Of a DNA stretch of 64,000 nt, positions 2,225 to 33,772 are shown piece after piece. The notes under the pieces were generated by a model, which searched no databases, had not been told where the DNA came from, and saw only the letters and a list, made by a program, of their open reading frames with translations. Each line of letters starts with the position of its first letter. Within the stretch, counting starts at the first letter, position 1. The DNA is from Cornus controversa. Its lineage: Eukaryota; Streptophyta; Magnoliopsida; Cornales; Cornaceae. Both the position numbers and the translations under genes were made by a program. The stretch covers positions 4,216,001-4,280,000 of the forward strand of contig CM048847.1 of NCBI GenBank assembly GCA_026545225.1. The letters are read 5' to 3'.

Positions 2225-5200
2225 CGAATCAAAACAACTCAAATGAAACAAGTTTAAAATGGTCGGTAGCTTGCTAATTGTTTCCTTTAGATGTCCAAAC
2301 GGTCGAACTTGGAACGAAGCACCATACGGTTGTGATGAAGATCGGATTGACATGTTCGTCACTTCTTTTGGATGCTTTGATGGTCTAATTTGGAAAAAAG
2401 AAACTTACGATTCTGATTATGGCACGACTTCTCAAGGAATAGGTTTTTGAATCAGAACAACTCAAACTAAACTTGTTTAAACTCCTCGGTAGCTTGGCAA
2501 TTGTTTCTTTTACTTTTCCAGATGGTTGAAGTTGGCATAGAGCACCATACGGTTGTCATCATTCATGAGTGCAGCAAGGAATTACTATTTTTGATTCAGG
2601 ATGTCCTGATGGTTGAATTTGGCATAAAGCAATGTATAATTCTAAGTATGGCACGATTTCACGTGGATTGGACTTTTCGAATCAGGAGAAGTAAAACGAA
2701 ACAAGTTCGAAACCGTTGTTGTCATTCTCTATTTTTCTGAACATCCAGATGGTCAATTCTAGCACAAAGCGCCATACGGTTGTCGTCATGCCTGATTATT
2801 ACAAGCAATTGTTCTTTTCGACTCAGAACAACTCAAACAAACATGGATGAAGATCGGAACGACATGCTCGTCGTTTCTTTGGGACGCTTTGATAGTTTCA
2901 TTTAAAAAAATGCAGCGTACGATTAGTATTATGGCACAACTTCTCTTGGAATGCAGTTTTCGAATCAAAACAACTTAAATGAAACAAGTTTAAAATGGTC
3001 GGTAGCTTGCTAATTGTTTCCTTTAGATGTCCAAACGGTCGAACTTGGAACGAAGCACCATACGGTTGTGATGAAGATCGGATTGACATGTTCGTCACTT
3101 CTTTTGGATGCTTTGATGGTCTAATTTGGAAAAAAGAAACTTACGATTCTGATTATGGCACGACTTCTCAATGAATAGGTTTTTGAATCAGAACAACTCA
3201 AACTAAACTTGTTTAAAATCCTCGGTAGCTTGGGAATTGTTTCTTTTACTTTTCCAGATGGTTGAATTTTGCATAGAGCACCATACGGTTGTCATCATTC
3301 ATGAGTGCAGCAAGGAATTACTATTTTTGATTCAGGATGTCCTGATGGTTGAATTTGGCATAAAGCAATGTATAATTCTAAGTATGGCACGATTTCACGT
3401 GGATTGGACTTTTCGAATCAGGAGAAATAAAACGAAACAAGTTCGGAACCGTTGTTGTCATTCTCTATTTTTCTGAACATCTAGATGGTCAATTCTAGCA
3501 CAAAGCGCCATACGGTTGTCGTCATGCCTGATTATTACAAGCAATTGTTCTTTTAGACTCAGAACAACTCAAACAAACATGGATGAAGATCGGAACGACA
3601 AGCTCGTCGTTTCTTTGGGACGCTTTGATAGTTTCATTTAAAAAATGCAGCGTACGATTAGTATTATGGCACAACTTCTCTTGGAATGCGGTTTTCGAAT
3701 CAAAATAACTCAAATGAAACAAGTTTAAAATGGTCGGTAGCTTGCTAATTGTTTCCTTTAGATGTCCAAACGGTCGAACTTGGAACGAAGCACCATACGG
3801 TTGTGATGAAGATTGGATTGACATGTTCGTCACTTCTTTTGGATGCTTTGATGGTCTAATTTGGAAAAAAGAAACTTACGATTCTGATTATGGCACGACT
3901 TCTCAAGGAATAGGTTTTTGAATCAGAACAACTCAAACTAAACTTGTTTAAAATCCTCGGTAGCTTGGGAATTGTTTCTTTTACTTTTCCAGATGGTTGA
4001 AGTTGGCATAGAGCACCATACGGTTGTGATCATTCATGAGTGCAGCAAGGAATTACTATTTTTGATTCAGGATGTCCTGATGGTTGAATTTGGCATAAAG
4101 CAATGTATAATTCTAAGTATGGCACGATTTCACGTGGATTGGACTTTTCGAATCAGGACAAGTAAAACGAAACAAGTTCGAAACCGTTGTTGTCATTCTC
4201 TATTTTTCTGAACATCCAGATGGTCAATTCTAGCACAAAGCGCCATACGGTTGTCGTCATGCCTGATTATTACAAGCAATTGTTCTTTTCGACTCAGAAC
4301 AACTCAAACAAACATGGATGAAGATCGGATCGACATGCTCGTCGTTTCTTTGGGACGCTTTGATGGTTTCATTTAGAAAAAAGTAGCGTACGGTTAGTAT
4401 TATGGCACAACTTCTCTTGGAATGCGGTTTTCGAATCAAAACAACTCAAATAAACAAGTTTAAAATTGTCGGTAGCTTGCTAATTGTCTCCTTTAGATGT
4501 CCAAACGGTCGAACTTGGAACGAAGCACCATACGGTTGTGATGAAGATCGGATTGACATGTTCGTCATTTCTTTTGGATGTTTTGATGGTCTAATTTGGA
4601 AAAAAGAAACTTACGATTCTGATTATGGCACGACTTCTCAAGGAATAGGTTTTTGAATCAGAACAACTCAAACTAAACTTGTTTAAAATCCTCGGTAGCT
4701 TGGGAATTGTTTCTTTTACTTTTCCGGATGGTTGAAGTTGGCATAGAGCACCATACGGTTGTGATCATTCATGAGTGCAGCAAGGAATTACTATTTTTGA
4801 TTCAGGATGTCCTGATGGTTGAATTTGGCATAAAGCAATGTATAATTCTAAGTATGGCACGATTTCACGTGGATTGGACTTTTCGAATCAGGACAAGTAA
4901 AACGAAACAAGTTCGAAACCGTTGTTGTCATTCTCTATTTTTCTGAACATCCAGATGGTCAATTCTAGCATAAAGCACCATACGGTTGTCGTCATGCCTG
5001 ATTATTACAAGCAATTGTTCTTTTCGACTCAGAACAACTCAAACAAACATGGATGAAGATCGGAACGACATGCTCGTCGTTTCTTTGGGACGCTTTGATA
5101 GTTTCATTTAAAAAAATGCAGCGTACGATTAGTATTATGGCACAACTTCTCTTGGAATGCAGTTTTCGAATCAAAACAACTCAAATGAAACAAGTTTAAA

Positions 5201-19200: not shown

Positions 19201-22200
19201 TTGTTTCCTTTAGATGTCCAAACGGTCGAACTTGGAACGAAGCACCATACGGTTGTGATGAAGATCGGATTGACATGTTCGTCACTTCTTTTGGATGCTT
19301 TGATGGTCTAATTTGGAAAAATGAAACTTACGATTCTGATTATGGCACGACTTCTCAAGGAATAGGTTTTTGAATCAGAACAACTCAAACTAAACTTGTT
19401 TAAAATCCTCGGTAGCTTGGGAATTGTTTCTTTTACTTTCCAGATGGTTGAAGTTGGCATAGAGCACCATCCGGTTGTGATCATTCATGAGTGCAGCAAG
19501 GAATTACTATTTTTGATTCAGGATGTCCTGATGGTTGAATTTGGCATAAAGCAATGTATAATTCTAAGTATGGCACGATTTCACGTGGATTGGACTTTTC
19601 GAATCAGGACAAGTAAAACGAAACAAGTTCGAAACCGTTGTTGTCATTCTCTATTTTTTTGTACATCCAGATGGTCAATTCTAGCACAAAGCGCCATACG
19701 GTTGTCGTCATGCCTGATTATTACAAGCAATTGTACTTTTCGACTCAGAACAACTCAAACAAACATGGATGAAGATCGGATCGACATGCTCGTCATTTCT
19801 TTGGGACGATTTGATGGTTTCATTTAGAAAAAAGTAGCGTACGATTAGTATTATGGCACAACTTCTCTTGGAATGCGGTTTTCGAATCAAAACAACTCAA
19901 ATAAACAAGTTTAAAATGGTCGGTAGCTTGCTAATTGTTTCCTTTAGATGTCCAAACGGTCGAACTTGGAACGAAGCACCATACGGTTGTGATGAAGATC
20001 GGATTGACATGTTCGTCATTTCTTTTGGATGCTTTGATGGTCTAATTTGGAAAAAAGAAACTTACGATTCTGATTATGGCACGACTTCTCAAGGAATAGG
20101 TTTTTGAATCAGAACAACTCAAACTAAACTTGTTTAAAATCCTCGGTAGCTTGGGAATTGTTTCTTTTACTGTTCCGGATGGTTGAAGTTGGCATAGAGC
20201 ACCATACGGTTGTGATCATTCATGAGTGCAGCAAGGAATTACTATTTTTGATTCAGGATGTCCTGATGGTTGAATTTGGCATAAAGCAATGTATAATTCT
20301 AAGTATGGCACGATTTCACGTGGATTGTACTTTTCGAATCAGGACAAGTAAAATGAAACAAGTTCGAAACCGTTGTTGTCATTCTCTATTTTTCTGAACA
20401 TCCAGATGGTCAATTCTAGCACAAAGCGCCATACGGTTGTCGTCATGCCTGATTATTACAAGCAATTGTTCTTTTCGACTCAGAACAACTCAAACAAACA
20501 TGGATGAAGATCGGAACGACATGCTCGTCGTTTCTTTGGGACGCTTTGATAGTTTCATTTAAAAAAATGCAGCGTACGATTAGTATTATGGCACAACTTC
20601 TCTTGGAATGCGGTTTTTGAATCAAAACAACTCAAATGAAACAAGTTTAAAATGGTCGGTAGCTTGCTAATTGTTTCCTTTAGATGTCCAAACGGTCGAA
20701 CTTGGAATGAAGCACCATACGGTTGTGATGAAGATCGGATTGACATGTTCGTCACTTCTTTTGGATGCTTTGATGGTCTAATTTGGAAAAAAGAAACTTA
20801 CGATTCTGATTATGGCACGACTTCTCAAGGAATAGGTTTTTGAATCAGAACAACTCAAACTAAACTTGTTTAAAATCCTCGGTAGCTTGGGAATTGTTTC
20901 TTTTACTTTTCCAGATGGTTGAAGTTGGCATAGAGCACCATACGGTTGTGATCATTCATGAGTGCAGCAAGGAATTACTATTTTTGATTCAGGATGTCCT
21001 GATGGTTGAATTTGGCATAAAGCAATGTATAATTCTAAGTATGGCACGATTTCACGTGGATTGGACTTTTCGAATCAGGACAAGTAAAACGAAACAAGTT
21101 CGAAACCGTTGTTGTCATTCTCTGTTTTTCTGAACATCCAGATGGTCAATTCTAGCACAAAGCGCCATACGGTTGTCATCATGCCTGATTATTACAAGCA
21201 ATTGTTCTTTTCGACTCAGAACAACTCAAACAAACATGGATGAAGATCGGATCGACATGCTCATCGTTTCTTTGGGACGATTTGATGGTTTCATTTAGAA
21301 AAAAGTAGCGTACGAGTAGTATTATGGCACAACTTCTCTTGGAATGCGGTTTTCGAATCAAAACAACTCAAATAAACAAGATTAAAATGGTCGGTAGCTT
21401 GCTAATTGTTTCCTTTAGATGTCCAAACGGTCGAACTTGGAACGAAGCACCATACGGTTGTGATGAAGATCGGATTGACATGTTCGTCATTTCTTTTGGA
21501 TGCTTTGATGGTCTAATTTGGAAAAAAGAAACTTACGATTCTGATTATGGCACGACTTCTCAAGGAATAGGTTTTTGAATCAGAACAACTCAAACTAAAC
21601 TTGTTTAAAATCCTCGGTAGCTTGGGAATTGTTTCTTTTACTTTTCCGGATGGTTGAAGTTGGCATAGAGCACCATACGGTTGTGATCATTCATGAGTGC
21701 AGCAAGGAATTACTATTTTTGATTCAGGATGTCCTGATGGTTGAATTTGGCATAAAGCAATGTATAATTCTAAGTATGGCACGATTTCACGTGGATTGTA
21801 CTTTTCGAATCAGGACAAGTAAAATGAAACAAGTTCGAAACCGTTGTTGTCATTCTCTATTTTTCTGAACATCCAGATGGTCAATTCTAGCACAAAGCGC
21901 CATACGGTTGTCGTCATGCCTGATTATTACAAGCAATTGTTCTTTTCGACTCAAAACAACTCAAACAAACATGGATGAAGATCGGATCGACATGCTCGTC
22001 ATTTCTTTGGGACGATTTGATGGTTTCATTTAGAAAAAAGTAGCGTACGATTAGTATTATGGCACAACTTCTCTTGGAATGCGGTTTTCGAATCAAAACA
22101 ACTCAAATAAACAAGTTTAAAATGGTCGGTAGCTTGCTAATTGTTTCCTTTAGATGTCCAAACGGTCGAACTTGGAACGAAGCACCATACGGTTGTGATG

Positions 22201-22610
22201 AAGATCGGATTGACATGTTCGTCATTTCTTTTGGATGCTTTGATGGTCTAATTTGGAAAAAAGAAACTTACGATTCTGATTATGGCACGACTTCTCAAGG
22301 AATAGGTTTTTGAATCAGAACAACTCAAACTAAACTTGTTTAAAATCCTCGGTAGCTTGGGAATTGTTTCTTTTACTTTTCCGGATGGTTGAAGTTGGCA
22401 TAGAGCACCATACGGTTGTGATCATTCATGAGTGCAGCAAGGAATTACTATTTTTGATTCAGGATGTCCTGATGGTTGAATTTGGCATAAAGCAATGTAT
22501 AATTCTAAGTATGGCACGATTTCACGTGGATTGTACTTTTCGAATCAGGACAAGTAAAATGAAACAAGTTCGAAACCGTTGTTGTCATTCTCTATTTTTC
22601 TGAACATCCA
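16240..22610. repeat. Four-unit higher-order repeat domain, left of the insertion (2941-bp period)
   Basis: Unit types recur in the order d-a-b-c. Type d has GGAAAAATGAAAC and CACCATCCGG. Type a has GTGGATTGTACTTTT. Type b has CTCTGTTTTTCTG. Type c has AACAAGATTAAAATGG then GATGGTTTAAG. Type d occurs at 16240 and 19182, and type a at 16975 and 19916. After 21387 the order breaks: the unit begins as type c (AACAAGATTAAAATGG) but continues as type a (GTGGATTGTAC at about 21790), and another type a follows at 22122. That looks like an unequal-exchange product just left of the transposon. Confidence 0.8.
22606..22610. repeat. Target-site duplication, left copy (ATCCA)
   Basis: ATCCA lies directly before the element end TGTCACGCCC and is repeated directly after the other end at 33768-33772. 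The uninterrupted satellite reads CTGAACATCCAGATGG at this place, so 5 bp of target was duplicated, the size expected for Ty3/gypsy integrase. Confidence 0.97.
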
Positions 22611-22655
22611 TGTCACGCCCCGATTCCCGAGGCCCGGAAACCGAGGTGTGAACCC

Positions 22656-22673
22656 CGTGAGATCACCCTCACG
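22656..22673. other. Perfect inverted repeat near LTR end
   Basis: CGTGAG and CTCACG flank a 6-base centre (ATCACC), giving a 6-bp perfect stem about 45 bp from the outer LTR end. In the transcript it would lie near the end of U5. The same sequence is at 29501-29518. Confidence 0.6.
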
Positions 22674-22788
22674 ACATAACCTCCACCTGATCATACAATT
22701 CGATTCCCTATTATTTTTACGAAAATCGGGCATGACCCATTCTAAATAATCAGCTCCTGGCATATTACACCTGCTTTACAATTCATAT

Positions 22789-22861
22789 GGACACTTCTGG
22801 GCACGTGTCCCCCCAGCATTTATATCCAACAATAAATATGGACACTTCTGGGCCCGTGTCC
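22789..22861. repeat. Tandem pair of GGACAC...GTGTCC hairpins
   Basis: Two near-identical inverted repeats at 22789-22810 and 22840-22861. Each has stem GGACAC/GTGTCC and a 10-base loop beginning TTCTGGGC, and they lie 51 bp apart. The second differs by one loop base. They recur in the other LTR at 29634-29706. Confidence 0.75.
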
Positions 22862-23631
22862 CCCCAATATTTCTACAACATGCATAAACAATTATAAATA
22901 TACATGCCTCAGTCCTTGAATATCCGTATTAAATACATACATCACATGAATAAAATACAACTGAAGGAACTGAATCTACACAAACGCTTTATACATTTAA
23001 TCCAAATGTAAAGCATCTATCTATCCACTATCCTGGACATACATTAGATTCTAAGGAATCTACCTACTACCTCTGCAACCGGTGCTGTCAGTCCCCTAAC
23101 TAACTCCGAAATCAGCAATACCTGCAAAACCTGGGAGGGGGTGAGCTCAAAGGCCCAACAAGGTATGTAGAACCATACTATCACCGCTGCAGCAGGTCGA
23201 TTCTCACATATTCTCAAAAAATATACATGCAGTTAAATATATCACAATATTTAAGACCATGCCCTACCTAGCATGCATAAACCAATGACGTATATGGCTA
23301 CTCTAGCACATATGAACATACAAAATCCACTATACATGATTTTAGAAATCATTTTCAACATGCTTGAAAGCAGTAAACATCAGGCATCTATATGTATATA
23401 GAACATATATGTCAACACATTTACATAACCGATGTAAATCAACTACCACATCTCCTACTCGTCAAGTAGCACATCTCAAATGCAATATAGATGCATTTAA
23501 ACATAAAAACGTGCTTAACAGATAAACACATAAGCATAAAGGTATTTTCACATTCTACGGTCATAATCCGATACATGAGACAAGTATCTAAGCTTGCACA
23601 TACTCTCACTCTCGGTCCTCATCCGATACCC

Positions 23632-24034
23632 CACATGATTGGGCCGCTCCGAGGATCATGTGACCTAGGACAACTCCGATAACTAACCTATGACCTAGAC
23701 CACTCCGAAAGGTCATCCTACCCTGGCAATGTATAGGATTGCCATTTTGTGAGGGGACAGCTCCGAGGCTCACATTCATTGGACATACTCCGAATTCCAG
23801 GCATTAGGCCTGAGCATGGCGGGTCCACTCCGAGGGCCATACTTGTTGGACATATTCCGATGGCAATATATTGGTTTGCCAAATTGTGAGGGGGCAACTC
23901 CGAAACTCACTAATGTTGGACACACTCCGATTCTAGGCATAAAGCCTTCGTATGGCGGGTCCACTCCGAGGGCCATACGCATGGATAATTATACCACTTC
24001 TCGTGACACGGTTGGACCACTCCGAAGTCCCGTG
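23632..24034. repeat. Array of inverted repeats with a constant CTCCGA loop
   Basis: A run of short hairpins whose stems differ while the loop keeps (A/G)CTCCGA. They are CACATGAT/ATCATGTG (23632-23662), ATGACCT/AGGTCAT (23690-23716), GTGAG/CTCAC (23749-23773), ATGGC/GCCAT (23816-23840), GTGAG/CTCAC (23886-23910), CGTATGGC/GCCATACG (23949-23979) and CACGG with GGAC/GTCC,CCGTG (24007-24034). Interspersed are stems without the motif, such as TGGCAAT/ATTGCCA (23724-23744) and TGGCAA/TTGCCA (23861-23881). Part of the region is an imperfect tandem repeat of about 136-138 bp. The second LTR has the same array at 30477-30879. A role in RNA structure, packaging or replication is possible but unproven. 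Confidence 0.82.
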
Positions 24035-24059
24035 CACCTCTTTTTGCGTTAATTTTCCC

Positions 24060-25090
24060 GCAACCTCTCATATATGCAATATGGATGCATACGTAACCAA
24101 GCATTCTATTTTATGCTATCCCAATGCACCAGCTAGTATATAAGTACGTAGCATGCATTTTCCTCTACAAAAACCCACATATAACCACGTATGTGTCATT
24201 TCCCTCCTATACATGCAATATGGATGCATATATACACAGCATAATACTTTCATGCTTCAACCCATGCTTATGAATACTAAAAAGAAGTATTTAGCATGCT
24301 TTTCACCACATTCTAACACATATAGCACATATATGTTCAAAACCTGCATAACACCTCATATATGCAAAACACTTCAATCTTAGCACATTTTTATCGTGCT
24401 ATAACCAATGCATACATTTTCTATAAACAGATAGCATGCATTTCATTCACGTAACCCTACATGTAAACACGTACATGTCAAATCATGCATATAAATCACA
24501 CATGCACACACACTAGCATAAATACAGTCATGCTATCATTCAACACATGTATCCACTACAAGAAGCTAACATGCATTCCAATCACAACACATATACACAC
24601 ATATGTATATTACGTCACCCACGTATGTATCAAGAACATATAAAACAGTTAGCACATTTCATGCTTTTCAAATGCTCGCTAAAAGTTATATTCAACTTAG
24701 CATGCATTTCTACCACTGCAACCATATATATATATATATAATCACATATATATATATACATCCTGAACACCATGCATAAGAACCACATATGCATACAAGA
24801 CAACACAGAGCTAAACAGGTATTATTTAGCATGCTTTACATAGACTTTAATCTATACATACATGCATATCACAATGCAATCAGGCGATTAATCTAACATG
24901 TTATCGCTTCCCAAACCCACACATATATATATATATACACACGCATATATATATCCTCTCATATCCCATGTATGCACAACATCCACCTATACCCACATAT
25001 ATATAAGCACCTATATATATATGTATAGACACATACCACATATGATTAAATTAATAACATATGTAAATTACTCAACGTAAATAAAAAGTA
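24060..25090. other. AT-rich non-coding LTR segment with ATGCAT/CATATA words
   Basis: About 1 kb dominated by GCATGCATTT, ATATGCAATATGGATGC and CACATATATG motifs, plus short (TA) runs at about 24725-24760 and 24925-24955. I see no open frame of interest and no regulatory site I can defend. It is repeated at about 30905-31935. Confidence 0.7.
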
Positions 25091-25099
25091 AGTAAGAGG

Positions 25100-26460
25100 T
25101 AGAGGCAAGAATCAACTTGCCTTAAGTCCCGCTCTCCAATGAATCCGCGTCTGCAAAGCGGTCCATGCCAAGCCCGGTCAAGTCCTGTGTCAAGGCCGAC
25201 ACGAACACTCCCTGAACCATTTCCTTGCCCTTTCTGATTTCCGGTCCAACCCAAAACACGAGTCATAACATCTTGTTATGCAAGTCTATCAAGCCAACAC
25301 CAAGGCCGGCATCCTCAAACCATCCAATCGAAGCTCCAAGCTTCGGCACTATTGTCGACTCCAAAGCCGAACTCATTGACCACCGTTGTCAACCTCCAGT
25401 TATACCCCCTTTTCCGGTCACCGTGAACAGACCCAGCATGAACCGAGACCACCAACAATTTAAACTCCAAAATCAAGCCACTAAGGCCGAGCCTCCACTA
25501 GCCACTGTTGCAATCTCACGGCTGCAACACTCAAACTAGCCGAAGCCAATCACCAACCGCAACCCCTATGGAAAACCCACCGGAAGCCGCCTATTTCCAC
25601 CATTTTTAGACCAATCAACACAACCCAGCAACCACTTCAATTTCCGATACCGAGCTGTCACCTTTTACTTTACAAACCATGGCAGCCACCGTCATCACCA
25701 CTTCGGTGAAGACCCATAGTCGAACCCAAATCCGCAAGCTACAACCACAAAGGCCACCCTTTTGAAGCCTCTCTAACCGAACCCAGCCGAGCTCAGTCTA
25801 AACCCGGACCAAACACCACCTGCTACCATGAACCCCTCAAACTGTGGCTAGCCTATGAAGACTAACCAAAACTCAACTCAAAATCAACCATTGCAACACC
25901 AACCATAACCAAATCAGACCAAGAAGGCCCAGTCAATAAACCAAGTTCAGCCAACACAATCAACCGAAGCCCAAACAGCCGTGGAACCATCGTCGGGCCA
26001 TCCAAAGCCAACCCAACACGACCCACCTGCCGAAGACCCTTCATCGCCGCCGCTAGAGTCGCCGAAACCAACAGAAACCCAGCCGCGAAACCCCCTTCGC
26101 GAACGGCTCGGCTGAACCGAGCCACCACCAGCCCGAACCGAAGACCCATCGTCGGAACCAAACAGGGCCATTTTGATCCCGCACCACTACCGCTATTCAC
26201 CGCCGGAGCTCGTCGAGACAGATCCAGCACGGCCCGAGCACCAGCCGAAGCCAAACGGACCCCCGTTTCTGCCATCCACCCGCAAGCCACGGACGAGCTG
26301 AGCGTCGCCACCCGAGCCGGAGCCCCACCGCGAGCAACCCAGCCGCCGCTGTCGCCAGACCGAAGCTGGTCGGCCGCCACGGCCACCGTCGGCGCCGGAT
26401 CACCCCTCTCGGCTTCTCTCCCGATCCCTCTTCTTGGTTTCGGTTTCTCTCTCCCCGATT
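25100..26460. other. GC-richer non-coding LTR segment
   Basis: CCG- and GCC-rich sequence with many CAACC/AAGGCCGA words. The long open frame on the minus strand here (25862-26599) is shifted by the 29-bp length change in the other LTR, so it is not conserved as protein even between two nearly identical copies. The counterpart is about 31945-33334. Confidence 0.7.
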
Positions 26461-26533
26461 CTCTTTTTCCTTCTTTTCTTTTCCTTTTCTTTTTCTTTTC
26501 TTTTCTTTTCTCTTTTCTTTCTTCTCTTTCTTT
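26461..26533. repeat. Polypyrimidine tract in LTR
   Basis: A run of CTTTT/CTTTC words, purine-rich on the element's sense strand. The counterpart is at 33335-33407. It lies about 360-430 bp into the LTR in element orientation, downstream of the likely promoter region. Confidence 0.85.
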
Positions 26534-26737
26534 AATTGCAACCACAACTTTACTTACACCATTCTCCTCCACATAAAATAATACATATGTATATATCATC
26601 CATATATGTATCTAACTCCACATGTGTATTTTTTCTAAATACACTTACACACATAATACAATATGCTCCCACAATTTCTCATAATTGCGTAAAAGCCCAC
26701 CACATATTTATAATTAAATATAAATATAGGTACTATG

Positions 26738-26757
26738 TATATATATATATATATATA
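26738..26757. repeat. (TA)n microsatellite, 20 bp, in LTR
   Basis: Twenty bases of alternating TA after CTATG. The other LTR has 24 bases at 33612-33635. This is one of only two length differences between the LTRs, as expected of replication slippage since insertion. Confidence 0.9.
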
Positions 26758-26889
26758 GACATAAACACACACCTTCCACTTATATGGAAACATAAATGTC
26801 CACACCCTTTCCGGAATTTAATTAATCCGAAAAAAAATCAATCCGGTCCAAATTCACCTGCACCGGTCAAAATAATTCCGGTCCTTACA

Positions 26890-26903
26890 ACCTCCCCTCC
26901 TTC
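26890..26903 (-). other. Polypurine tract (plus-strand primer site)
   Basis: On the minus strand the sequence GAAGGAGGGGAGGT abuts the 3' LTR start TGTAAGG. This is the expected position and composition for the RNase H-resistant primer of plus-strand DNA synthesis. It independently confirms the minus-strand orientation of the element. Confidence 0.93.
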
Positions 26904-26970
26904 AAGGAATTTCGTCCTCGAAATTTGCATAGTCATGGTCTTTCCAAAACCAATCCTTACCAGACGTCAT
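26902..26970 (-). pseudogene. Vestige of Ty3/gypsy polyprotein C-terminus
   Basis: On the minus strand a 22-codon frame ends ...DYANFEDEIP-stop immediately before the polypurine tract. An acidic NFEDEI-type tail just upstream of the purine tract is common at the end of plant chromovirus polyproteins. Upstream in the same frame is a stop within about 30 bp, so only the tail remains. I infer that the parent was a chromovirus, perhaps of the long-LTR Tekay/Del type; a chance match over so few residues remains possible. Confidence 0.5.
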
Positions 26971-27216
26971 TCTCGCCAATGATCGTCACTTTCCCTTTCC
27001 ACATACCCTAGGCGTTACACTTGCAACACCTAACTCATAACACTCAAGTCTAGCACAATCAGTGCGTCTCAACTGCCGTAAGGCAATATAACCCTTTCCG
27101 TGACATGGCTGAGTGACTCCTAAGCTCATGTACGGTTCACTCACAAAATCCTCTGAAGCACTTGCTTCCTAGAGTCCACAGTCTCTACCTCAAGACCTAC
27201 CCAGTCCATCTCTATC

Positions 27217-27290
27217 TCTAGTCTAAGGCAATACCTTTGACTAATCATACCAATCACTCACAGTGATACTTCCCTACAATCCGGGATCGT
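27217..27290. repeat. Internal duplication A, copy 1
   Basis: The words AGTCTAAGGCA, CCTTTGACTA, ATACCAATCACT and CAGTGA appear in this order here and again at 28669-28740 (AGTCTAAGGCA, CCTTGACTA, ATACCAATCACT, CAGTGA). This is an old, diverged duplication inside the element. Confidence 0.7.
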
Positions 27291-27430
27291 CAATACTCAA
27301 AATCATTCTTTTATTATCAAACATGACTTTCAATCTCTAGCATATCATTCCCGGGCTTAGTCCAATATCCTGGGCCTCATCGCAACACAAACCACATCAA
27401 TCCAGTGCACATCACAAGCGCACTCACCAG

Positions 27431-27610
27431 TAAGGCACATGACAGTGTACTCGCTGATAAAAACAACACAAAGAGTGTACTTGCCGCAACAAGCCACATA
27501 ATCCTGCCCAGTATCATAGACTACGACCCACTGAAATCCAATGCCAAGTCTAGGATCTCACATCCCACTGATTTCACAATCTCATTATTCAAGAGGAGAT
27601 TCATTTCCCA
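27431..27610. repeat. Internal duplication B, copy 1
   Basis: Resembles 27931-28082. Shared ordered words include AAGGCACAT, GTGTACTTG or GTGCACTTG, GACTACG, CCAAG and CACAATCTCATT or CACAAATCTCATT. The two copies are well diverged and non-coding. Confidence 0.55.
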
Positions 27611-27930
27611 TTTTCATCCTTCACACCAAGGAGCCAGTTGACAATTAGAGAGAATTCCTTTCATATCAGCACTTCACTTTAGACAACCCTTACCAATGAA
27701 AGTTTGAGGTCACCTACAGTAGCCAAACAGCAGCCATACAGTGGCCGCAGTCCACTGCGTCTACACGTCCACTGCGTCCACCTCTCCCCTTCACGGCAAG
27801 AAATTATCCTCACTTCAGATACCATATGTCAGGATCCTCGTCCACTATCAACCCATCCTTCTCTTAACATCATATCCACACTATGATCTAACTGCATCTA
27901 TCATGCGCATATCACAGCACACCACTGAGG

Positions 27931-28082
27931 TCAAGGCACATAAGGAGTGCACTTGTCAAAACAAATCATCCCGTCCTGTCCATTTTTGTTGACTACGTTC
28001 CATTGGCATTTAGTGCCAAGATTAAGGTTTTTCATGCTCTTAACTTCACAAATCTCATTTCCTAAGGAATGAATCCAATTTA
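27931..28082. repeat. Internal duplication B, copy 2
   Basis: Diverged partner of 27431-27610, offset about 500 bp. The rest of 28083-28668 shows nothing I can name. Confidence 0.55.
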
Positions 28083-28668
28083 CTTACTCGTCCATTAATC
28101 CTAACGGACGTTTCCGGCTTCCCGGGTATTTATCCATTCCTTTCCAGCATCTCCTTTGAGACTCCAAGATCCTGACTGCTTCGTCTAGGACCCTACAATT
28201 CCAGACTTACTTTCAAAGCCTATCACTACGTGCCTATTTCAACATCATAGTCCACTCGGGTTCAAACCTCTACCTAGGTTTACCAATTCTCAAAACCAGA
28301 ACTCTCTAGGGGACTACATGTCACTACTAGCCATGCAACGCAAAATGAAACACTAAAGTGCAATGCTCAATTACATGAATCACATATACCACATAGCATA
28401 TAACACACAACATGATAACCAAATAATCACATACCATGCATGATATGACATATGATGCATAAATCAAACCCCTAGCCCTCGGGCTAATACTAGGAAAATA
28501 CCCTTGACCATACACGGTCCTAGTACCTCCTCTGCCTGAGCAAGCGTGTAAAACACGGCCCAGTCCCCCTAGTATACACACATACTAGAACACAAAATCT
28601 AGAGTGGTTCAAACCAACCTACCCTCATCCTCTGTACTCATTGGTAAACACCTACCAATCTACCCACT

Positions 28669-28740
28669 TCTATAGTCTAAGGCAGCAACCTTGACTATCA
28701 ATACCAATCACTTTCAGTGACATATCCCTACTATTGGGAA
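28669..28740. repeat. Internal duplication A, copy 2
   Basis: Diverged partner of 27217-27290, about 1450 bp away. It is followed by two direct copies of AACTCCGGCAACA-like sequence at 28858 and 28906. Confidence 0.7.
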
Positions 28741-29140
28741 TCCTTTATCTATCATCATCCAGACGAAACAACTCAACGTCTACAAGAGCCGGCGTATTGT
28801 AAGAGGAACGCTAATCCAAGAAAAATGTCTGATCAGGCCATTTTTCCCAGTTAGCCCAACTCCGGCAACATGCCTTCCTTGTATCCCATCTCAATCCCAA
28901 TTGCCAACTCCGGCAACACTCATCAATCTCATAAGTCCCTAAGTATCTCTAAGGACTTGAACACTCGCAAACTTCCTTGCGGTACCTCTTCATTGCTCAC
29001 TACTGAGACTTAATCACTAAATCAAAGGTCTAAACTCAACCAATTCTGGGAGTTTTACCAACTAAATCCAATTTTATACCAACACTTTAATCTTTCATTT
29101 GGGTTGCTCAACCGAGCAATTCATAACACTACCGTCCATA

Positions 29141-29440
29141 GGTATTCAAACCTATCATCTAGACAACTATCAACCATTGCCTATCTCCAAACCAACATGT
29201 GATTTGACCATCCGTCCTCAGGTATTCGAACCTACGACTTTGATACCCTAGGTTTTTCAAACCTAATGCCTTAACAGCAATCCAAAGTTCCTCAAATCCT
29301 CAACTCTATCCTATCGCCCCTAGGTATTCCAACCTAGTGCTCTGACAGATACCATTCTGACATCAAGTACAAAATCCAACATTCCCAACCATACACATGG
29401 TATGTCCATTCCCCGTCGTCCCTAGGTATTCCAACCTAGA
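29141..29440 (-). repeat. Leader modules with T-arm-like hairpins beside the PBS
   Basis: GGTATTC-type modules start at 29141, 29221, 29323 and 29425 (spacings 80, 102 and 102 bp), with a related GGTTTTTCAAACC at about 29251. Several fold as short hairpins with changed but matching stems: ATAGGT-ATTCAA-ACCTAT (29139), TAGGTTT-TTC-AAACCTA (29249) and CTAGGT-ATTCCA-ACCTAG (29321 and 29423). Three modules are followed by a PBS-like string: GACTTTGATACC, GCTCTGACAGATACCA and the real GCTCTGATACCA. The hairpin plus GCTCTGATACCA resembles the T-arm and acceptor end of initiator tRNA-Met. Confidence 0.7.
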
Positions 29441-29452
29441 GCTCTGATACCA
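29441..29452 (-). other. Primer-binding site, tRNA-iMet type
   Basis: The minus strand reads TGGTATCAGAGC, the standard plant retrotransposon PBS complementary to the 3' end of initiator methionine tRNA. It lies 3 bp inside the 5' LTR end (29456). It fixes the direction of minus-strand DNA synthesis and of the element. Confidence 0.97.
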
Positions 29453-29633
29453 TCCTGTCACGCCCCGATTCCCGAGGCCCGGAAACCGAGGTGTGAACCC
29501 CGTGAGATCACCCTCACGACATAACCTCCACCTGATCATACAATTCGATTCCCTATTATTTTTACGAAAATCGGGCATGACCCATTCTAAATAATCAGCT
29601 CCTGGCATATTACACCTGCTTTACAATTCATAT

Positions 29634-29706
29634 GGACACTTCTGGGCACGTGTCCCCCCAGCATTTATATCCAACAATAAATATGGACACTTCTGGGCCC
29701 GTGTCC
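29634..29706. repeat. Tandem pair of GGACAC...GTGTCC hairpins (5' LTR copy)
   Basis: Same two inverted repeats as in the other LTR, offset 6845 bp and unchanged. Confidence 0.75.
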
Positions 29707-30476
29707 CCCCAATATTTCTACAACATGCATAAACAATTATAAATATACATGCCTCAGTCCTTGAATATCCGTATTAAATACATACATCACATGAATAAAA
29801 TACAACTGAAGGAACTGAATCTACACAAACGCTTTATACATTTAATCCAAATGTAAAGCATCTATCTATCCACTATCCTGGACATACATTAGATTCTAAG
29901 GAATCTACCTACTACCTCTGCAACCGGTGCTGTCAGTCCCCTAACTAACTCCGAAATCAGCAATACCTGCAAAACCTGGGAGGGGGTGAGCTCAAAGGCC
30001 CAACAAGGTATGTAGAACCATACTATCACCGCTGCAGCAGGTCGATTCTCACATATTCTCAAAAAATATACATGCAGTTAAATATATCACAATATTTAAG
30101 ACCATGCCCTACCTAGCATGCATAAACCAATGACGTATATGGCTACTCTAGCACATATGAACATACAAAATCCACTATACATGATTTTAGAAATCATTTT
30201 CAACATGCTTGAAAGCAGTAAACATCAGGCATCTATATGTATATAGAACATATATGTCAACACATTTACATAACCGATGTAAATCAACTACCACATCTCC
30301 TACTCGTCAAGTAGCACATCTCAAATGCAATATAGATGCATTTAAACATAAAAACGTGCTTAACAGATAAACACATAAGCATAAAGGTATTTTCACATTC
30401 TACGGTCATAATCCGATACATGAGACAAGTATCTAAGCTTGCACATACTCTCACTCTCGGTCCTCATCCGATACCC

Positions 30477-30879
30477 CACATGATTGGGCCGCTCCGAGGA
30501 TCATGTGACCTAGGACAACTCCGATAACTAACCTATGACCTAGACCACTCCGAAAGGTCATCCTACCCTGGCAATGTATAGGATTGCCATTTTGTGAGGG
30601 GACAGCTCCGAGGCTCACATTCATTGGACATACTCCGAATTCCAGGCATTAGGCCTGAGCATGGCGGGTCCACTCCGAGGGCCATACTTGTTGGACATAT
30701 TCCGATGGCAATATATTGGTTTGCCAAATTGTGAGGGGGCAACTCCGAAACTCACTAATGTTGGACACACTCCGATTCTAGGCATAAAGCCTTCGTATGG
30801 CGGGTCCACTCCGAGGGCCATACGCATGGATAATTATACCACTTCTCGTGACACGGTTGGACCACTCCGAAGTCCCGTG
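30477..30879. repeat. CTCCGA-loop inverted-repeat array (5' LTR copy)
   Basis: Unchanged copy of the array at 23632-24034. In a genomic transcript starting in this LTR the loop would read UCGGAG on the sense strand. Confidence 0.82.
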
Positions 30880-32872
30880 CACCTCTTTTTGCGTTAATTT
30901 TCCCGCAACCTCTCATATATGCAATATGGATGCATACGTAACCAAGCATTCTATTTTATGCTATCCCAATGCACCAGCTAGTATATAAGTACGTAGCATG
31001 CATTTTCCTCTACAAAAACCCACATATAACCACGTATGTGTCATTTCCCTCCTATACATGCAATATGGATGCATATATACACAGCATAATACTTTCATGC
31101 TTCAACCCATGCTTATGAATACTAAAAAGAAGTATTTAGCATGCTTTTCACCACATTCTAACACATATAGCACATATATGTTCAAAACCTGCATAACACC
31201 TCATATATGCAAAACACTTCAATCTTAGCACATTTTTATCGTGCTATAACCAATGCATACATTTTCTATAAACAGATAGCATGCATTTCATTCACGTAAC
31301 CCTACATGTAAACACGTACATGTCAAATCATGCATATAAATCACACATGCACACACACTAGCATAAATACAGTCATGCTATCATTCAACACATGTATCCA
31401 CTACAAGAAGCTAACATGCATTCCAATCACAACACATATACACACATATGTATATTACGTCACCCACGTATGTATCAAGAACATATAAAACAGTTAGCAC
31501 ATTTCATGCTTTTCAAATGCTCGCTAAAAGTTATATTCAACTTAGCATGCATTTCTACCACTGCAACCATATATATATATATATAATCACATATATATAT
31601 ATACATCCTGAACACCATGCATAAGAACCACATATGCATACAAGACAACACAGAGCTAAACAGGTATTATTTAGCATGCTTTACATAGACTTTAATCTAT
31701 ACATACATGCATATCACAATGCAATCAGGCGATTAATCTAACATGTTATCGCTTCCCAAACCCACACATATATATATATATACACACGCATATATATATC
31801 CTCTCATATCCCATGTATGCACAACATCCACCTATACCCACATATATATAAGCACCTATATATATATGTATAGACACATACCACATATGATTAAATTAAT
31901 AACATATGTAAATTACTCAACGTAAATAAAAAGTAAGTAAGAGGTAGAGGCAAGAATCAACTTGCCTTAAGTCCCGCTCTCCAATGAATCCGCGTCTGCA
32001 AAGCGGTCCATGCCAAGCCCGGTCAAGTCCTGTGTCAAGGCCGACACGAACACTCCCTGAACCATTTCCTTGCCCTTTCTGATTTCCGGTCCAACCCAAA
32101 ACACGAGTCATAACATCTTGTTATGCAAGTCTATCAAGCCAACACCAAGGCCGGTATCCTCAAACCATCCAATCGAAGCTCCAAGCTTCGGCACTATTGT
32201 CGACTCCAAAGCCGAACTCATTGACCACCGTTGTCAACCTCCAGTTATACCCCCTTTTCCGGTCACCGTGAACAGACCCAGCATGAACCGAGACCACCAA
32301 CAATTTAAACTCCAAAATCAAGCCACCAAGGCCGAGCCTCCACTAGCCACTGTTGCAATCTCACGGCTGCAACACTCAAACTAGCCGAAGCCAATCACCA
32401 ACCGCAACCCCTATGGAAAACCCACCGGAAGCCGCCTATTTCCACCATTTTTAGACCAATCAACACAACCCAGCAACCACTTCAATTTCCGATACCGAGC
32501 TGTCACCTTTTACTTTACAAACCATGGCAGCCACCGTCATCACCACTTCGGTGAAGACCCATAGTCGAACCCAAATCCGCAAGCTACAACCACAAAGGCC
32601 ACCCTTTTGAAGCCTCTCTAACCGAACCCAGCCGAGCTCAGTCTAAACCCGGACCAAACACCACCTGCTACCATGAACCCCTCAAACTGTGGCTAGCCTA
32701 TGAAGACTAACCAAAACTCAACTCAAAATCAACCATTGCAACACCAACCATAACCAAATCAGACCAAGAAGGCCCAGTCAATAAACCAAGTTCAGCCAAC
32801 ACAATCAACCGAAGCCCAAACAGCCGTGGAACCATCGTCGGGCCATCCAAAGCCAACCCAACACGACCCACC

Positions 32873-32901
32873 GCCGACCACTGCCATGGCCGGAACCCAC
32901 C
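32873..32901. repeat. 29-bp segment present in only one LTR
   Basis: Lies between two CCCACC words. The other LTR has a single CCCACC (26022-26027). The simplest explanation is deletion between 6-bp direct repeats in the left LTR after insertion; tandem gain on the right is the alternative. Confidence 0.9.
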
Positions 32902-33334
32902 TGCCGAAGACCCTTCATCGCCGCCGCTAGAGTCGCCGAAACCAACAGAAACCCAGCCGCGAAACCCCCTTCGCGAACGGCTCGGCTGAACCGAGCCACC
33001 ACCAGCCCGAACCGAAGACCCATCGTCGGAACCAAACAGGGCCATTTTGATCCCGCACCACTACCGCTATTCACCGCCGGAGCTCGTCGAGACAGATCCA
33101 GCACGGCCCGAGCACCAGCCGAAGCCAAACGGACCCCCGTTTCTGCCATCCACCCGCAAGCCACGGACGAGCTGAGCGTCGCCACCCGAGCCGGAGCCCC
33201 ACCGCGAGCAACCCAGCCGCCGCTGTCGCCAGACCGAAGCTGGTCGGCCGCCAAGGCCACCGTCGGCGCCGGATCACCCCTCTCGGCTTCTCTCCCGATC
33301 CCTCTTCTTGGTTTCGGTTTCTCTCTCCCCGATT

Positions 33335-33407
33335 CTCTTTTTCCTTCTTTTCTTTTCCTTTTCTTTTTCTTTTCTTTTCTTTTCTCTTTTCTTTCTTCTC
33401 TTTCTTT
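33335..33407. repeat. Polypyrimidine tract in LTR (5' LTR copy)
   Basis: Counterpart of 26461-26533, unchanged. GAAAAG-rich on the element's sense strand. Confidence 0.85.
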
Positions 33408-33576
33408 AATTGCAACCACAACTTTACTTACACCATTCTCCTCCACATAAAATAATACATATGTATATATCATCCATATATGTATCTAACTCCACATGTG
33501 TATTTTTTCTAAATACACTTACACACATAATACAATATGCTCCCACAATTTCTCATAATTGCGTAAAAGCCCACCA

Positions 33577-33586
33577 CATATTTATA
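33577..33586 (-). promoter_or_regulatory. Candidate TATA box of the retrotransposon
   Basis: TATAAATATG on the minus strand lies about 180 bp into the 5' LTR, where a U3 promoter could be. Neighbouring AT-rich words and the (TA) run at 33612-33635 are alternatives, so the choice is weak. Confidence 0.25.
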
Positions 33587-33611
33587 ATTAAATATAAATA
33601 TAGGTACTATG

Positions 33612-33635
33612 TATATATATATATATATATATATA
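33612..33635. repeat. (TA)n microsatellite, 24 bp, in LTR
   Basis: Longer counterpart of 26738-26757. Confidence 0.9.
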
Positions 33636-33767
33636 GACATAAACACACACCTTCCACTTATATGGAAACATAAATGTCCACACCCTTTCCGGAATTTAAT
33701 TAATCCGAAAAAAAATCAATCCGGTCCAAATTCACCTGCACCGGTCAAAATAATTCCGGTCCTTACA

Positions 33768-33772
33768 ATCCA
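33768..33772. repeat. Target-site duplication, right copy (ATCCA)
   Basis: Directly follows the LTR end CCTTACA and continues into satellite GATGGTCAATTC. It pairs with 22606-22610. The split unit adds up to 489 + 247 = 736 bp once one copy is discounted. Confidence 0.97.

Follow-up and report, generated by a model that had tools for sequence, protein, structure and literature searches.

A tandem array of hairpins with differing stems and a near-fixed loop in the long terminal repeats of a Cornus controversa retrotransposon and related families

The window analysed here is a stretch of 64 000 nt of the Cornus controversa genome (C3:4216001-4280000), and the genome searched comprises 771.7 Mb in 61 contigs. 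The window contains one LTR retrotransposon (22611-33767), which interrupts satellite DNA (table 1). Its two LTRs differ by three mismatches and 33 gap positions, and the 5-nt direct repeat ATCCA at 22606-22610 and 33768-33772 is the target duplication. The primer binding site, which we take to be of the tRNA-iMet type, lies beside 29456 and the polypurine tract lies at 26890; on this ground the minus strand is the sense strand of the element. The first-pass annotation of this DNA had taken the plus strand as sense, and that assignment has to be reversed: plus is antisense. Six minus-strand ORFs, of which four lie within the interior or overlap it, were scanned against Pfam; none has a match above the cut-off, and no gag or pol domain was recognised in them. 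As two LTRs, a target duplication, a primer binding site and a polypurine tract are all present, the element is classed as a non-autonomous LTR retrotransposon. We liken it to the LARD type (barley Sukkula group): the two have in common the LTRs, the primer binding site, the polypurine tract, the target duplication, the great length of the LTRs (4.3 kb), an interior in which no proteins are recognised and the presence of many copies. Unlike a LARD, the element has a shorter interior (2.57 kb), and its structured portion lies in the LTR and is common to a relative that bears gag and pol. The flanks of the element are satellite-like, with a 223-nt repeat of which two copies, about 80 per cent alike, lie at 22000-22422. 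Composition is even along the window.

Table 1. Features of the LTR retrotransposon and of its hairpin array. Positions are those of the window; stems are written as sense RNA.
Feature	Position	Strand	Length, basis or remark
LTR 1 (3' LTR in sense)	22611..26889	-	4279 nt
LTR 2 (5' LTR in sense)	29456..33767	-	4312 nt
Internal region, no protein domains recognised	26890..29455	-	2566 nt
Primer binding site TGGTATCAGAGC	29441..29452	-	adjoins 29456; same site in L065
Polypurine tract GAAGGAGGGGAGGT	26890..26903	-	adjoins 26889; similar tract precedes L065 LTR
Hairpin array, LTR 1	23631..24035	-	sense LTR positions ~2855-3259
Same array, LTR 2, identical	30476..30880	-	offset +6845
Hairpin U1 (H1), stem GCACGG/CCGUGU	24006..24035	-	arm matching
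Hairpin U2 (H2), stem CGUAUGGC/GCCAUACG	23949..23979	-	arm matching; alignment A2
Hairpin hA, AGGC..GCCU	23935..23947	-	sequence; 98.7% paired in alignment A2
Unstemmed motif U3, TCGGAG	23925..23930	-	sequence
Hairpin U4, stem GUGAG/CUCAC	23886..23910	-	arm matching
Hairpin hB, UGGCAA..UUGCCA	23861..23881	-	sequence; helix 5 in alignment A1
Unstemmed motif U5, TCGGAA	23855..23860	-	sequence
Hairpin U6, stem AGUAUGGC/GCCAUGCU, second copy of U2 block	23813..23843	-	arm matching
Hairpin hA second copy, CAGGC..GCCUG	23798..23812	-	sequence
Unstemmed motif U7, TCGGAG	23788..23793	-	sequence
Hairpin U8, stem UGUGAG/CUCACA	23748..23774	-	arm matching
Hairpin hB second copy, UGGCAAU..AUUGCCA	23724..23744	-	sequence
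Hairpin U9, stem AUGACCU/AGGUCAU	23690..23716	-	arm matching
Unstemmed motif U10, TCGGAG	23674..23679	-	sequence
Hairpin U11 (H7), stem UCACAUGAU/AUCAUGUGG	23631..23663	-	arm matching

The array spans 407 nt (23630-24036) and recurs identically in the other LTR at +6845. Between 23647 and 24025 there are ten copies of CTCCGA and one of TTCCGA; read on the sense strand, these are 11 motifs per LTR, all TCGGAG except one TCGGAA, and the RNA loop is UCGGAG(U/C). One extra CTCCGA per LTR lies beyond the array, at 23104 and 29949. Seven of the 11 motifs stand within stems of 5-9 bp, whose sequences differ and whose arms match their own partners; the earlier description of repeated inverted repeats with differing stems around a near-fixed CTCCGA loop is therefore upheld. 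The other four (U3, U5, U7 and U10) have no good stem, and each of them lies exactly 27 nt upstream, in the sense direction, of a stemmed motif. Two other kinds of hairpin, AGGC..GCCT and TGGCAA..TTGCCA, are interspersed, each occurring twice. The block U2-U5 has been duplicated in tandem as U6-U8, and this duplication is an older one.

The matching of arms goes well beyond chance. The summed arm-match score of the array is 154; swapping arms from one unit to another lowers it to 108 ± 9.6 (none of 20 000 trials as high), and shuffling the flanks to 94 ± 8.8 (none of 500). Stems are also more frequent than in shuffled sequence, contrary to the outcome that the first-pass annotation had named as refuting: the array has seven Watson-Crick stems of 6 bp or longer, dinucleotide shuffles have 1.4 on average, and none of 300 shuffles reaches seven. 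Folding, which it had put forward for the sense RNA, shows an ordinary energy on both strands: the array's minimum free energy does not fall below that of shuffles (z -0.07 on the plus strand, +0.74 on the minus strand). The arm-matching tests were used because an energy signal is absent on both strands. The array is set apart by its register and its loop, not by its stability.

Searching the genome with 461 nt of the array yielded 2299 first-look candidates; the 40 that were scored have identities of 97-100 per cent. Patterns built on the loop reach other families: there are 42 places at a spacing of 29 nt, 12 at a spacing of 30 nt and 61 that combine the loop with hA, and the reversed-pattern control gave none for each of the three. 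Other LTR families of the genome thus also carry the array, and the order of the hairpins is kept in distant families. The distribution of the array in plants was surveyed in this one genome; one exact pattern, run against viral contigs, found no match. Divergence along the LTR is lowest in the array, a comparison unusable as evidence since the copies compared were selected by their array.

One relative, L065, was traced from two same-family matches lying 9.7 kb apart on C10. This copy belongs to Ty3/gypsy and has both gag and pol, the latter interrupted by stop codons. Its ORF pieces match, above the cut-off, models of gag, CCHC knuckle, protease, reverse transcriptase, RNase H and the integrase zinc-binding domain; the match to the integrase core is below the cut-off. 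Its LTRs carry the array, 84-87 per cent identical to that of the window over the main pieces. The array is common to this gag/pol-bearing copy and to the protein-less element. The idea, raised from the window, of a signal belonging to an element without proteins of its own holds for the element itself, in so far as Pfam recognised nothing in the six minus-strand ORFs, but the array is not special to such elements; the same loops, which the first-pass annotation proposed to seek in autonomous relatives, are present in L065 with its gag and pol genes.

Several copies have unusual layouts. At C3:2374660-2384998 (L003 and L004), two arrays are 100 per cent identical to that of the window over 461 nt and stand 6878 nt apart, against 6845 in the window. 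At C4:21505488-21519673 (L012-L014), three arrays follow each other at an equal spacing of 6862 nt, as in a tandem LTR-interior-LTR-interior-LTR. The array of L054, which overlaps L055, has extra block duplications, with 17 TCGGAG in about 600 nt and two more at the LTR end.

Pairing across copies was analysed in two alignments. Alignment A1 holds 33 old arrays, namely 32 of a set of 40 arrays and L074, eight having been left out by eye as apparently truncated or belonging to another group; L081, L083, L101 and L110, which are partly decayed, were retained in its pairing, G·U/A·C and covariation counts. Alignment A2 combines 27 of this set of 40 with 12 rows from other families, hand-picked for variety, and its L074 row is badly cut and nearly all gap. 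In A1, 89.1 per cent of 1585 cells are paired in register, against 25-44 per cent when the arms are slid, a figure favoured by the fact that we drew the structure from the same 33 sequences.

Taken over all 61 places of the pattern, which leaves the stems unconstrained, hairpin H2 has 358 Watson-Crick and 43 G·U pairs in 427 cells and is 94 per cent paired over pairs 1-7; L110 is kept in this later set and was left out of the earlier one, in which 41 of 42 places were counted. Across families (A2), H2 has 17 double-changed cells against 9.8 in shuffles and a covariation score of 0.194 against 0.160, neither value being reached in 500 shuffles. Its second pair is G-C in the lineage of the window and A-U elsewhere, and its outer pair is C-G in the window and G-C elsewhere. 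These double changes may represent few events, and the shuffles ignore relatedness. For the whole A2 structure the count of double-changed pairs is less clear (6 against 4.2, reached by 47 of 500 shuffles; in H2, six of eight pairs), as is that of further pair types (42 of 500 shuffles as high). Within A1 the covariation score is at the level of shuffles (236 of 500 reach it), with the exception of the number of pairs showing a double change, 18 against 12.3 (3 of 500). The claim that selection acts on the folded form is partly supported: H2 across families speaks for it, the covariation score within the 33 arrays does not.

Arm matching was also tested in pooled units. Among 84 representatives of 293 distinct units, the preference of an arm for its own partner in the expected register has a z of 5.7 for 39 short-loop and 3.0 for 45 long-loop representatives, this split having been adopted after unsplit pooling looked weak; unsplit, three of the 16 top covarying column pairs are expected ones. 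In a test that drew on 386 distinct arm pairs, 95 non-redundant units gave an own-partner z of 5.4, and all other registers tested gave 0.8 or less. Arm swapping within H2 gave no covariation signal.

Part of this record might be expected if the array were a mutational by-product, its inverted repeats formed and kept perfect by template switching during reverse transcription and by tandem duplication, with no present function. The U2-U5 block is clearly duplicated as U6-U8, L054 is duplicated further, and covariation inside one group is at shuffle level. Copying from arm to arm, however, leaves unexplained why unrelated stems have a loop and a CC anchor in common, or why distant families keep their hairpins in one order; we consider such an origin improbable.

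Which strand would be under selection was considered next to these pairing data. If the sense RNA is selected, G·U should be tolerated on the sense strand and A·C should not. At the 61 H2 places there are 43 G·U and 12 A·C, where composition alone predicts 1.4:1, and at the 19 places found later the ratio is 8:0. In the 33 arrays it is 118:83, and shuffling of partners within columns gives 124.7:91.5; as the ratio survives this shuffling, the signal, if any, lies in which base changes. Fourteen further well-aligned arrays, a subset of 29 further rows taken by a filter on identity and length, have 59 G·U and 32 A·C. Strand asymmetry is absent from 150 pooled units (26 G·U, 25 A·C), and 33 representatives have four G·U and 11 A·C, seven of the latter at the closing pair. 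In stems, after standardization for context, C>T is favoured over G>A (column permutation p 0.0002). The substitution-rate ratio against spacers alone was 1.87 (1.26-3.11) in the first set; the excess was not reproduced in the added rows (1.07 in the 29 rows and 1.16, 0.49-3.38, in the 14 well-aligned ones), and the pooled value is 1.72 (1.13-2.66). Mixed as they are, these figures suggest the sense strand as the selected one.

The same figures bear on a reading of the array as a DNA element, in which tandem transcription-factor sites would lie in U3 and the inverted repeats would be part of the DNA site or by-products. A conserved core of 12-13 nt is indeed repeated; of two TATAAAT sequences, the one at sense position 4066 would place the array in U3 and the one at 178 would not. 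The lack of strand asymmetry in the pooled units fits such a site, as does consensus folding, in which the two strands behave alike: RNAalifold, left unconstrained on the 33 arrays, beats column shuffles in energy with z -18.6 for sense and -16.9 for antisense. Its 19 pairs recover H2 and hA and none of the six other named hairpins, and they include a helix that runs across the right arm of H1. A DNA site, on the other hand, does not need unit-specific arms that match each other, and the 43:12 ratio in H2 speaks against it. We regard this reading as rather unlikely, and a structure of the sense RNA as probably the property under selection.

The structure of the array is well supported by these comparisons, and from it we infer a function. 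Our working proposal, which we put somewhat short of an even chance, is that the array acts in cis in the sense RNA, where Gag zinc knuckles would bind its GGAG loops and so bring about packaging. It would belong to the genomic RNA of a Ty3/gypsy lineage having members with and without gag/pol, in which, by the biology of LTRs, every LTR segment is present in the full-length RNA. Each unit of the sense strand would fold into a short stem with a UCGGAGUNGNCC-type loop exposed at its tip; any pairing sequence could serve as stem, and the loop would be the part that is read. The zinc knuckles of a partner's Gag would bind the GGAG of the loops in multiple copies, so that the RNA would be selected for packaging, and by way of the partner's Gag the protein-less element would be carried along.

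Gag binding is favoured because the GGAG loop is constant, because pairs of CCHC knuckles read GGAG and because the Gag ORF of L065 has such a pair (two knuckles, in the one copy examined). The CCHC knuckles of HIV NC and Lin28 are described, in excerpts of the sources, as binding GGAG in RNA loops (PMC7599994, PMC3759924). Caution comes from HIV itself, where replacement of the GGAG loop is reported to be without significant effect on packaging (excerpt of PMC7599994). By this analogy, a role of the array in Gag binding and packaging may be entertained, with more doubt than confidence. A bolder version, in which the LTR array of a plant Ty3/gypsy lineage would be a platform on which Gag zinc knuckles dock multivalently and a built-in trans-packaging tag common to both kinds of member, seems to us doubtful.

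The anatomy that suggests a sense-RNA element would also serve for RNA export or stability, if the loops recruited a host RNA-binding protein for nuclear exit, as for the mouse RTE and MTE or for CAR elements. With its short motif repeated several times in some 400 nt, the array resembles CAR elements, which are 160-285 nt long with one or more 10-nt motifs and whose presence in plant LTR elements is unclear according to the portion consulted of a review (PMC12786077). RTE, MTE and CAR are likewise cis-acting RNA structures or repeated short motifs (same source); unlike them, the window array, to which no sequence match was found, has a putative export role. The same excerpt states that the export of plant LTR retrotransposon RNA has not been studied directly and that steps of the cycle in the host are poorly characterized. 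Against export, described RNA families (Rfam) have no match at the gathering score, no host factor is known and the related Gag would be a simpler reader; we judge it unlikely. An export element and a U3 enhancer explain the anatomy less specifically than Gag binding does, and a mutational origin explains it least.

The hairpins of a multi-copy LTR could also be processed to siRNA, as a small-RNA source or a silencing target. Stems of 5-9 bp are, to our knowledge, too short for known Dicer substrates, all miRNA matches are below the cut-off and none lies in the array, so this seems very improbable. Rfam as a whole gave no family at the gathering score and five weaker matches, none of them in the array; among curated families, the only ones that can match, no small-RNA, ribozyme or other Rfam origin is indicated.

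Among known systems, HIV Psi bears on Gag-mediated packaging. Both have short stem-loops presenting GGAG, read here from the sequence (unconstrained folding recovers only H2 and hA), and in both a related Gag (here that of L065) has two CCHC knuckles. Psi, a signal of the 5' leader that splicing removes, consists of few loops after the primer site, whereas in the window seven units or more form an array within the LTR, with Gag binding putative. The Lin28 sites of let-7 precursors are alike in that CCHC knuckles read GGAG in RNA (excerpt of PMC3759924), and differ in that Lin28 is an animal host protein in an unrelated context. In the barley pair BARE1/BARE2, the member unable to make Gag, BARE2, is packaged and has conserved dimerization and packaging signals, as far as the available text of PMC3735527 goes; these are Ty1/copia elements, and the term stem-loop is absent from the main text of that paper as available. 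Retrozymes, in partial descriptions, are plant non-autonomous LTR elements with a structured RNA, a hammerhead ribozyme; unlike them, the window element has no hammerhead match at the Rfam gathering threshold.

LTR elements, cis-acting hairpins and trans-packaging are all of known kinds, and among them a tandem array that is conserved in the LTRs of related families while its stems are exchangeable looks like a new form. No array of this kind was found among the listed titles and opening lines of abstracts of openly licensed PMC literature, and the accessible part of PMC3601003, which treats LTR structure, does not mention one. A compact fixed-loop array that protein-less elements and a gag/pol-bearing relative both carry is a directly testable candidate signal, and it offers a handle for matching non-autonomous families to their drivers. 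If the docking-platform reading were true, an array common to both kinds of member would tag their RNA for trans-packaging.

Other motifs of the element, all on the minus strand, may be recorded here. A splice-like pair consists of a GC-type donor, AAG/GCAAGT, at about 25120 (sense LTR position about 1770) and an acceptor, TTTTGCAG/GT, at about 23123 (about 3767); together they would enclose the array in a 2-kb intron of the LTR. The GC-type donor was looked for in L065 and none was found. Just inside the primer site, at 29130-29442, lies another series of small hairpins whose stems change, for example CTAGGTTGGAATACCTAG with its relatives TAGGTTTGAATACCTA and AGGTTCGAATACCT; the hairpin of this series that adjoins the primer site is present in L065 too. 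The interior has two TTGCCGGAGTTGG motifs, at 28901-28916 and about 28853-28868, the first of which, TTGCC-GGAGT-TGGCAA, is a hairpin with a GGAG loop about 540 nt past the primer site. Near the sense 3' end of the LTR, at 22789-22870, there are two GGACAC..GTGTCC hairpins with a near-fixed CCCAGAA loop.
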